Shown piece after piece: positions 899 to 4,294 of a DNA stretch of 64,000 nt; positions within the stretch are counted from its first letter, which is position 1, and each line of letters starts with the position of its first letter. Made by a program: the position numbers and the translations under genes. The stretch lies in NCBI RefSeq assembly GCF_014195535.1, contig NZ_JACIBY010000011.1, positions 62,001-126,000 on the forward strand, given 5' to 3'. This DNA is from Runella defluvii. Its GTDB lineage: Bacteria > Bacteroidota > Bacteroidia > Cytophagales > Spirosomataceae. The notes under the pieces were generated by a model that searched no databases, was not told the origin of the DNA, and saw only the letters and a program-made list of their open reading frames with translations.

Positions 899-3800
899 TT
901 ATGGGTTCATTTTCAGCTTCAAAAACTCAGCTGTGTAGTTATTTTCTAGCGCCAACATACTCTCGGGCGTACCCGCAAACGTGATGTAGCCGCCCTTATC
1001 GCCCCCTTCAGGCCCCAAATCAATAATCCAATCGGCCGATTTTATCACTTCGACGTTGTGTTCAATGACAATCACCGTATCTCCCTGATTAACCAGCGCA
1101 TTGATGGATTTTAACAATTTTTGAATATCGTGAAAATGGAGTCCCGTGGTTGGCTCGTCAAAAATAAACAACGAACGCCCTTGATTAGGGTTCGATTTAC
1201 TCAAGAAGAACGCCAGTTTGACCCGTTGGGCTTCGCCTCCTGATAAGGTATTGGACGATTGTCCCAGCTTGATGTATCCCAGCCCCACATCTTTCAACGG
1301 TTGAAGGCGCTCAGCCAATTTAGGCTCTTCTTGCTGGAAGAAATCGATGGCTTCGTCAATCGTCATGTTTAAAATATCCGAAATATCGGCCGAGTTTCCA
1401 TCGGGGCGTTGATAACGGACATCGAGTACTTCTTGTTTGAAACGCTTTCCGCCGCAGCCTTCACATTTGAGGTAAATATCAGCCATGAACTGCATTTCAA
1501 TTTTCACTTGACCTTCTCCTTGGCACGTTTCACAGCGCCCGCCTTCGACGTTGAAGGAAAAATGAGAAGGTTTATATCCTCTGGCTTTGGCCAGAGGCAC
1601 ATCGCTCATCATTTGGCGAATGTAATCATAGGCTTTGATGTACGTAACGGGATTAGAACGAGACGATTTCCCGATGGGATTTTGGTCCACCATTTCTAGG
1701 TTGTCGATGCGCTCAACGCTTCCCGTCAAATTGGCGTATTTGCCCGCATCTTCGTTGTACTCACCTTTTACGCGAGCCAAGGCGGGGAATAAAATCTTCC
1801 GAATCAGTGTCGATTTTCCTGAACCCGACACCCCTGTCACCACCGTAAGCGTTCCCAACGGAAATTTCACGTCCACGTCTTTCAGGTTATTTTCTTTGGC
1901 ACCCGTCAACTCTAGCCAATGTGTCGCTTTCCGACGGAAGGTGGGGACGGGTACTTGGTCGCGGCCCGTGAGGAAGTCGATGGTGTGGGATACAACCCCA
2001 CCCCTGCCCCTCCCCTGTGAGGGAGGGGTTGTATTATCCTTTTCATTCCGTGCAAGAACATCTTTTTGCTCTTCTACAACTGAATTAGTGCTTGAAGTAC
2101 TTAATTCCTCTCTTATTTTGCTTAAAACCTTTTCTATACTCTCAAAAACTTCTTCATTTTGAAAGCGTATCACTTTAAATCCTAATTCTTGAAGGTGTTT
2201 TGTACGAATAACATCATACTCTACCTGTTGATTGTGCACTTCACCATCTAATTCGATAATAAGTTGTTTCTCAAGGCAAACAAAATCAACAATATATTTT
2301 TCAATGGAATGCTGACGACGAAATTTAACACTTAATTGCTCTTTTCGTAAATACTCCCAGAGTGTCTCCTCTGCCCTCGTTGGATTTTTACGATTTTGAC
2401 GAACATCCTCTTTTATTGACTTCCATGTTTCAGGAGAACTATGATAAAACGGGCGGCTATAAGAAGGATTATCAGAAAAATCATCCCCCTCCCTAACAGG
2501 GGAGGGGTCAGGGGTGGGGTTGAGAATATCCTCCCAGCTCCCCTGCCAAACCACTGCTCCACCCAAATTTCCTGCATCTGGGCCGATGTCGATAATTTGG
2601 TCAGCGGCGCGCATGACTTCTTCTTCGTGCTCAACCACAATTACGGTATTGCCCATGTCGCGCAACGACTCCAACACGCTTACCAGCTTTCGGGTATCAC
2701 GCGGGTGAAGACCAATGCTTGGTTCGTCCAAAATGTACATTGAGCCTACCAAGGCACTCCCCAGCGAAGTCGCCAACTTAATCCGTTGAAATTCTCCCCC
2801 TGAAAGTGAATTAGTCAAGCGGTTGAGGGTCAAATAACCCAGCCCCACGCGGTTCATGTATTCCAAACGGTTTTCAATTTCAATCAAAATACGTTTGGCC
2901 ACGCCGTATTGAAAATCGGGTAGCGTGAGGTTTTGGAAAAATTGTAACACTTCCGAGATGGGCATCAAAACCAAATCAGTAATGGAAGTGCCTTTTATTT
3001 TTACGTAACTCGCATCCTGACGCAAACGCGATCCACGGCATTCGGGGCAGTTGGTTCGGCCTCGGTACCGCGACAACATCACACGGTATTGTACTTTATG
3101 TGTCTGCGATTCTAAATGCTCGAAAAAGGCCGTTAGACCTTCAAAATAGCTATTTCCCGTCCAGAGTAACGTTTTCTGGTCTTCGGCCAAATCTTTATAG
3201 GCGCGGTGAATCGGGAAATCAAAACGAATGCCATGACGCAACAACGGTGCCTGCCATTCGCTCATTTTTTCGGAACGCCAAGGGGCAATTGCTCCCTCAA
3301 ATACCGAAAGATTTTTATCGGGGATAACCAACTCAGGGTCTAAACCCAGTACTTTTCCAAAGCCTTCGCAGCGTTTGCAAGCTCCGTAAGGGTTATTAAA
3401 GCTAAAAAGGTTGACGCTCGGCTCTTCAAATTTTAGCCCATCCAATTCAAACTTATCAGAAAACGAACGTTTTTCTCCACCGACTACTTTTATCCAACAC
3501 AACCCTTCTCCTTCAAAAAAAGCCGTTTGTACCGAATCCGAAAGACGGAATAGCGTATCTTCGTCCTCGTGCTTAATGGCCGCTCGGTCCACCAAAACAA
3601 ATAACTCCGCTCCCTCCAAAGCTCCTTCAACGTTGCCTTCTTCCAATAATTCCTCAATCGAACGTGTTTCGTCATTTACTACGATTCGCGTGTAGCCTTT
3701 GGAAAGTAGAATGGTTAATTCTTGTTCGAGCGTACGATTTTCTTTGATGATAAGCGGTGCCAAAATCATTGCCCGCGTCCCTTCCTCGTGGCCCATAAGG

Positions 3801-4273
3801 TAATTGACCACGTCGGTAACGGTGTCTTTGCGAACTACTTCCCCCGAAACAGGCGAGTGAGTGACCCCAATTCGGGCAAAAAGCAATTTCAAATAATCGT
3901 AGATTTCGGTGGTCGTCCCTACCGTTGAGCGCGGATTTCGGGTATTGACTTTTTGTTCGATGGCTACCGCAGGCGAAATTCCCTTGATATAATCCACTTC
4001 GGGTTTTTCCATTCTTCCCAAAAACTGACGGGCGTAGCTGCTCAAGCTTTCGACGTACATGCGCTGGCCTTCGGCAAAAAGCGTATCAAAGGCCAACGAT
4101 GATTTGCCCGACCCCGATACGCCCGTTACGACAACGAGTTTGTTTCGTGGAATGGCCACATCAATATTTTTGAGGTTATTGACTCGCGCCCCTTTGATGA
4201 GGATAAATTTTTTGGGGTCTAGTCCTTCAAAATCAGAAGAAGATACAGTCGGATTACTTGTCGTTTGATTCAT
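899..4273 (-). CDS. uvrA: UvrA excinuclease ATPase with an inserted DUF559 endonuclease domain
   Basis: This is the damage-recognition ATPase of nucleotide excision repair. Seen: first Walker [10 protein letters not shown] (about residues 51-59), CxxC zinc motifs, [12 protein letters not shown] signature, second Walker A (about 814), the zinc module CETCQGEG...CEGCGGKR and the [12 protein letters not shown] signature. Without the insertion the protein would be about 948 residues, normal for UvrA; as encoded it has 1124. The extra 176 codons (about residues 585-760) fall in the linker between the two ATPase halves and encode a DUF559 nuclease domain. The frame stays open throughout. I chose the ATG at 4273 rather than an upstream TTG (4288), because a -7 promoter element lies at 4295-4302 and would place the RNA start near 4288. 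Whether the chimera is functional cannot be judged from sequence, but all ATPase motifs are intact. Confidence 0.93.
1994..2028. repeat. Left inverted terminal repeat of the DUF559 element
   Basis: A 35-bp G+C-rich sequence reading AACCCCACCCCTG and then a hairpin CCCCTCCC...GGGAGGGG around a short TGTGA-like loop. It matches the reverse complement of 2486-2521 except for one indel and one substitution. It is translated within uvrA as part of [12 protein letters not shown]. Confidence 0.85.
2486..2521. repeat. Right inverted terminal repeat of the DUF559 element
   Basis: A 36-bp inverted partner of 1994-2028, with the same internal hairpin (CCCTCCC / GGGAGGG type) and outer GGGGTGGGGTT arm. 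In uvrA it encodes [13 protein letters not shown] diverged third copy, with no nuclease gene, lies at 54587-54624. Confidence 0.85.
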
Positions 4274-4294
4274 TGGGCTGGTTTGCAAAACTCA

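Follow-up and report, generated by a model that had tools for sequence, protein, structure and literature searches.

Results

An in-frame nuclease cassette in uvrA of Runella defluvii

The DNA analysed is a stretch of 64,000 nucleotides from Runella defluvii (the window), in which uvrA, encoding excinuclease ABC subunit A, lies on the minus strand (899..4288) as one open frame that includes an inserted element and gives 1124 residues from the ATG at 4273. The element, of 528 bp or 176 codons (1994..2521, minus strand), is in frame in the linker preceding the second ATPase half, and both parts of UvrA align with insert-free relatives. A sequence-only reading of the window had described this insertion and its unbroken frame, and the observation is real and confirmed here; the length of the insert varies with the relative compared, the stop-to-stop frame being 173 codons longer than that of genome G006 and 163 longer than that of G010. 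The G+C content of the insert (39%, or 34% without its arms) lies below that of the remaining uvrA (47%), as had also been noted.

The centre of the insert encodes a DUF559 or Vsr-like nuclease domain of approximately 109 residues (2096..2422, minus strand) with its conserved D and E-x-D-G-x-x-H intact. It belongs to Pfam DUF559 (PF04480) with an E-value of 5.7e-36 and a score of 123 bits against a curated cut-off of 20.6, and the residues singled out earlier, D663, E674 and D676, are spaced (11 and 2) like the domain's conserved D, E and D. The insert frame holds no ATG and no TTG, and its two GTG codons (94 and 116 of the insert) fall well within the domain, so that the whole nuclease could hardly be produced except within UvrA.

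The ends of the insert are a 5' arm (gene strand; 2486..2521, minus), consisting of an outer tail AACCCCACCCC followed by the hairpin CCCCTCCCC-loop-GGGAGGGG, and a 3' arm (1994..2028, minus) that is an inverted copy of it. Ungapped, the arms are 82% complementary over 33 nt, and with one gap allowed 35 of 37 columns agree, which makes their earlier description as near-identical inverted hairpin repeats of about 36 bp a fair one; each arm also forms a separate hairpin. A 23-base piece of the end repeat had no match, at up to three mismatches, in 100 shuffles of the window, and inspection by eye of the uvrA sequences revealed no evident target-site duplication.

We infer that UvrA is translated with the insert as an extra domain. 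Its removal from the product by an intron, an intein or other splicing would be in keeping with the listing of EDxHD enzymes among the homing endonuclease families of group I introns (PMC3943268) and with the mention of an EDxHD-family DUF559 gene in a section on inteins (PMC9403480), both in the accessible parts of these sources, but is highly improbable given that positions 1700-2800 match nothing in Rfam at E-values up to 1 and that the Pfam matches include no intein domain. An intron or intein was rejected, as Rfam and Pfam give no support. The open frames of the other copies described below are not independent evidence against splicing, since those copies were chosen for their open frame.

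Empty and filled uvrA sites

All 59 genomes searched, among them the window's own, have UvrA. Among the 30 uvrA linkers that were read, which include those of all 13 same-genus genomes, the insert is found in two, the window's genome (G000) and G003, both within the genus, and is absent from 28. The alignment of relatives, which had been proposed as a check for the empty site, accordingly finds that the insert is not common to all relatives. In G010 the linker is short and free of insert, with flanks 98% and 99% identical to the window's. Outside these 30, a genome of another genus (G160, locus L074) carries a different DUF559 domain, 56% identical, in the same UvrA linker and with palindromic ends of its own, which is probably a separate gain.

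In the comparison of G000 with G003 the insert has 11.5 synonymous differences over 111 sites (dS 0.111), against 155 over 400 (dS 0.546) in upstream uvrA and 79 over 243 (dS 0.427) in downstream uvrA (Fisher p 2e-8 on rounded counts). When the gene is divided into segments of 40 codons, all five that overlap the insert have a dS of 0.10-0.14, and their neighbours 0.46 and 0.43; elsewhere in this pair dS is 0.32 for mnmE, 0.45 for hisF and 0.99 for scoAB. The low divergence and its sharp edges indicate that the two uvrA genes had separated long before they came to share the insert, which moved as a unit. The insert-free G010 is nearer to G000 than G003 is, with a dS of 0.342 in upstream uvrA, 0.231 in mnmE and 0.442 in scoAB, the exception being downstream uvrA (0.468, against 0.427 for G003). 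On the strength of the empty sites and the divergence gap, a simple vertically inherited domain was rejected for uvrA. The gap is what homing predicts; nuclease-free recombination could give the same, and ordinary interspecies recombination could also account for the transfer.

Clearly lower divergence of the insert is confined to the uvrA pair. In the four other pairs for which dS is computable for both insert and host (scoAB, leuS of Gillisia, metH of Flavobacterium and mnmE of G006 and G008, the last near saturation) the dS of the insert is 0.67-0.87 of the host's, which fits long vertical inheritance and implies that recent transfer is not general; for six further pairs the dS of the insert is not computable.

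DUF559 copies in other host genes

A family scan found DUF559 at E-values up to 1e-8 in 84 of 222 genomes, and 35 of the 95 copies in this family set lie in frames of more than 250 residues, 30 of them with at least 105 residues of frame on both sides (on one side of L089, L091, L095, L096 and L099 the frame is shorter). Rows with fewer than 70 HMM positions, duplicates and rows with less than about 150 bp on either side had been dropped, reducing the family set from 98 to 95 and another from 29 to 28, and L097-L099 were excluded from HMM building. A scan of genome contigs gave at least 574 relatives, the best 80 of which carry 79 Bacteroidota names and one of a cyanobacterium; 61 of these 80 lie in frames above 250 residues and 59 in frames above 400, a share biased upward by the choice of the best 80 when set beside the 35 of 95 in the family set. 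Two other sets hold 28 and 35 copies, the best-scoring among the matches listed, with 5 of the 35 from one genome. The four sets together hold 235 copies; 120 of them lie in frames above 250 residues, and 100 of these 120 have at least 105 residues of frame on both sides.

NCBIfam names approximately 25 host families in Bacteroidota and Cyanobacteriota. It was run on one or two examples per host, with further members, such as 28 LeuS, assigned by motif, and some of its names fall short of the curated cut-off in score, which is to be expected where a protein is cut or interrupted. In the family set the hosts are MetH, IleS, UvrA, MnmE, ScoA-ScoB, an AddB-like protein and methylmalonyl-CoA mutase; the wider sets add LeuS, ValS, RecG, IcmF, IspG, WecB, MazG, AcsA, a RecB-like protein, HsdR, alpha-xylosidase, a LegC-type aminotransferase and WbcJ, and the Cyanobacteriota hosts are PriA and IspE. 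The element is C-terminal in IspG and N-terminal in LeuC, Gmk and an HMG-CoA lyase-like protein, three cases in which the open frame may just happen to extend past the true start. Repeat-flanked DUF559 copies had been suggested as something to look for elsewhere, and they were found, many of them in frame within other genes; the finding is broader than the sequence-only reading saw, with relatives in frame across many conserved genes of two phyla. The majority of the hosts named are tRNA synthetases or enzymes of metabolism, so that a special link to DNA-damage sensing, as first proposed, finds no support.

None of 78 stand-alone copies lies in an opposite-strand frame above 250 residues in the loci examined, and antisense insertion was rejected on this count. 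An ATG occurs near 60 of 95 in-frame and 74 of 78 stand-alone copies, figures that are uninformative in bulk on separate expression. Matches were found in 40 of 72,556 plasmid records and 2 of 50,697 phage records, the latter figure leading us to reject phages as the main carriers; viral contigs gave 145 DUF559 relatives, with 80 loci kept.

Several loci show more complex arrangements. Two separate DUF559 insertions share one open frame in metH of G019 (L070:4034-8968) and in ispE of G664 (L336:334-2064), one of the latter preceding the gene's own start region, and L089:2825-4990 (G120) contains tandem DUF559 units, one full and two partial. Cyanobacteriota genomes of 1.7-2.3 Mb have up to seven DUF559 copies each among the matches listed, many in frames of 350-950 residues. 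Subunits A and B of 3-oxoacid CoA-transferase are in one open frame in all five same-genus genomes where they were found (L169, L170, L168, L166 and L167), with palindrome-bearing linkers to which DUF559 is added in two of the five; insertion of the element may have fused the two genes.

Conservation and relationships of the nuclease

The D and E-x-D-G-x-x-H of DUF559, which we take to be its catalytic residues, are invariant in all 95 copies of the family set, the window's included, and the motif is intact in 233 of 235 copies over the four sets (118 of 120 in frame and 115 of 115 stand-alone). In the 5 of 11 pairs with a computable and unsaturated dS the core has a dN/dS of about 0.1, showing that the nuclease is under purifying constraint. 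A profile of 27 DUF559 domains matches 3HRL ('endonuclease-like protein') at 1.8e-32, 3R3P ('mobile intron protein') at 5e-6 and PvuRts1I at 0.0016; the window protein alone has no match to 3R3P at E-values up to 1. On the assumption that 3R3P is the homing endonuclease I-Bth0305I, the family displays two marks of an EDxHD or Vsr-like nuclease, namely a sequence relation to that enzyme (through the 27-domain profile) and conserved catalytic residues. YcjD is a DUF559 protein. Its profile is reported to find Vsr at 1e-5 in the accessible text of Kosinski et al. (PMC1189080).

A tree of 170 domains (172 before removal of rows below 90 residues and of L099), with 110 usable columns and many weak forks, divides into two halves, one holding most of the stand-alone and the other most of the in-frame copies; the state switches at least 11 times, and the in-frame rows undergo at least 34 changes of host label, the labels being set by motif and by eye (L283, labelled Icd in the tree, is IcmF by NCBIfam). 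Copies from the same host often cluster, among them six RecG and six MnmE, which suggests that long vertical stays and changes of host both occur.

The intact catalytic residues and low dN/dS would also be expected of a stable gained domain, kept in UvrA for a function in repair, and the Caulobacter protein VsrA, which has a DUF559 domain, is linked genetically to DNA damage, the damage response of a methyltransferase mutant depending on it (PMC12907096, in the part available). Such a domain is nonetheless improbable here, as the insert occurs in so few genomes of the genus, similar cassettes occur in enzymes unconnected with repair, and the low divergence of the insert shows lateral spread; a special repair role for the insert in UvrA is unlikely.

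Palindromic ends and nuclease-free palindromes

Terminal inverted repeats, of the kind that define insertion sequences and MITEs, are present in the arms of the window's insert and around 129 of the 235 copies. By set, an inverted-repeat score of at least 18 is reached by 59 of 95, 36 of 80, 12 of 28 and 23 of 35 copies; random places in these loci, scored in the same way, gave 0 of 190, 160, 56 and 70 (0/476 in total), and mismatched flank pairs gave inverted repeats in 5 of 95 in the family set. Judged roughly and by eye, most of 34 in-frame copies with inverted repeats share one end design, ACCYCACCCC, a few bases and then CCCCTCTCC-loop-GGAGAGGGG, from which the ends at MetH, ScoAB and some others depart more. 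A strict arm consensus is found on both sides of 29 of 95 in-frame and 18 of 78 stand-alone copies, and per side in 23-47 copies, as compared with 0-2 for reversed flanks and 6-10 on the wrong strand. Neither an inverted nor a direct repeat reaches threshold in 37 of 95 in-frame copies, all six RecG cases among them, and in 31 of 78 stand-alone copies.

The pattern of the right end, at up to two mismatches, occurs in 11 of the 13 genomes of the genus, and its reversed control in none of the 13. Of 30 loci with this pattern, a few of which overlap, 25 lie in open frames above 250 residues, 7 of these 25 being the ends of the nuclease elements in uvrA and mnmE; a strict search for whole two-hairpin palindromes found three in 30 loci. 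Palindromes in frame in unrelated genes, the hallmark of Rickettsia palindromic elements (RPEs), are therefore found here too. In G004 (4.3 Mb) there are 52 end-pattern matches, many of them at contig starts (first 75 bases) or arranged as divergent pairs with a spacing of about 62 bp, and a high-copy palindrome probably broke the assembly.

In hisF, G000 and G003 carry a nearly identical 80-bp two-hairpin palindrome in frame; the same place holds a different palindrome in G010 and G007, a short loop in G005 and G008 and unrelated inserts in the other six. Quite different repeat-rich inserts, of the CAGTTCACAGTT type, are seen in the hisF loop of G009, G012 and G002 (L289, L290 and L292), and this loop appears to be a hotspot at which small insertions of several families settle in frame.

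Four genomes (G004, G006, G008 and G010) have the nuclease in mnmE, and two (G005 and G012) have just a palindrome there; G000, G003 and G007 hold short stretches that may be remnants. G001 gave no match, and the reading of mnmE covered genomes other than G002, G009 and G011. G005 is closely related to G008 (dS of 0.37 in mnmE, 97.7% identity in UvrA). Where G005 has a single 79-bp palindrome, G008 has the nuclease between two inverted copies of it, identical at 75 and 72 of 79 positions. In uvrA, and by eye also in mcm and ileS, half of such a palindrome stands on each side of the nuclease. Taken with the doubling in mnmE, these halves allow the element to be viewed as a nuclease that has settled within a palindrome or between two of them.

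The palindromes themselves might instead be the mobile units, moved by another enzyme, either a RAYT-type transposase or plain recombination, with DUF559 as a passenger. Like palindromes without nuclease recur in the genus, many in frame within genes, the mnmE nuclease between two whole palindromes resembles a composite transposon, and REPs with their RAYTs are a known precedent in the accessible part of PMC3733652. A passenger is rather unlikely all the same, since a crude pattern found no RAYT-like signature in 215 loci, the active-site motif is kept in nearly all in-frame and in every stand-alone copy, and DUF559 between inverted repeats recurs in two phyla.

Discussion

The insert in uvrA is best explained as a splice-less, in-frame, homing-like mobile element in which palindromic hairpin ends surround a DUF559 nuclease of Vsr-like or EDxHD type, a reading based on comparison of sequences to which we give a probability of about two in three. 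Mobility of the element is well supported; by what mechanism it moves, we infer. The earlier proposal of a nuclease-repeat element that spreads into permissive linkers is supported overall, both by the empty sites and by the repeat-flanked in-frame copies in many genes.

Mobile elements in genes usually break the host gene or splice out. In-frame fusion of a homing endonuclease to its host gene without splicing is known from fungal mitochondrial rps3, which differs from the present case in nuclease class and compartment, and we know of no palindromic ends there. The nearest bacterial parallels each share part of the design. RPEs are in-frame palindromes in unrelated genes and are apparently tolerated (PMC10969869, in the part available); the nuclease-free palindromes described here resemble them in behaviour, and the present system differs in that the long form carries DUF559, no nuclease being named for RPEs in that part of the text. 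REPs also occur within genes, including uvrA of O. terrae and Thioalkalivibrio, and one REP class is said to be without a dedicated transposase (PMC3733652, accessible text). According to the same text, REPtrons, in which a RAYT gene is flanked by REPs, likewise have palindromes on both sides of an enzyme gene and further copies elsewhere without the enzyme, but the enzyme here is a DUF559 protein of PD-(D/E)XK type, not a RAYT (a tyrosine HUH transposase), which sets the element apart from a REPtron, and it is translatable inside host proteins. In Thiomargarita, as far as the available portion of PMC4853749 goes, a MITE is tied to a PD-(D/E)XK_2 (Yhg-A) gene and interrupts hupL; small inverted-repeat elements are linked there, too, to a PD-(D/E)XK nuclease gene, but of another nuclease family and with no in-frame nuclease cassette described.

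The EDxHD homing endonucleases, among which DUF559 has been placed (PMC9403480, in the part available), are a further parallel. The profile match to 3R3P links DUF559 to I-Bth0305I, and lateral movement into one site fits such a nuclease. The present element differs in its palindromic ends, its many host genes and a host protein apparently translated with the insert, and no intron or intein was found, residence in which is usual for EDxHD nucleases without strictly defining them. In-frame palindromes and the DUF559 nuclease family are each already known; titles and abstract openings, with subscription journals largely outside the search, yielded no work joining DUF559 with palindromic ends or in-frame insertion.

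In the mechanism that we envisage, cleavage by the nuclease, either of an allele without the insert or of a related palindrome, would be repaired from the filled copy, and nuclease and ends would thereby be carried across, as in homing. The short nuclease-free palindromes would be empty target sites or deletion products, and the host would tolerate the insert because the frame stays open and the linker loop is dispensable for function. A more specific version, that the nuclease homes into protein-coding palindromes, recognizing its own ends at short copies, cutting there and being copied in between, is put forward tentatively, at somewhat less than even odds. As the palindromes would already be in frame, this would explain how one nuclease can enter unrelated genes by the dozen without breaking their frames.

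The element appears to persist in conserved enzymes of two phyla as an extra nuclease domain, and offers a testable candidate for the spread of protein-coding palindromes; if homing into palindromes is true, it would supply their missing mobilizer and constitute a new class of mobile element. Some caution is suggested in annotation, since many Bacteroidota enzymes with an internal DUF559 domain may host the element and need not be fusions selected for function. More broadly, such insertion would let proteins acquire whole domains within their loops, and its sites may provide a natural map of the loops that tolerate a domain of 110 residues.
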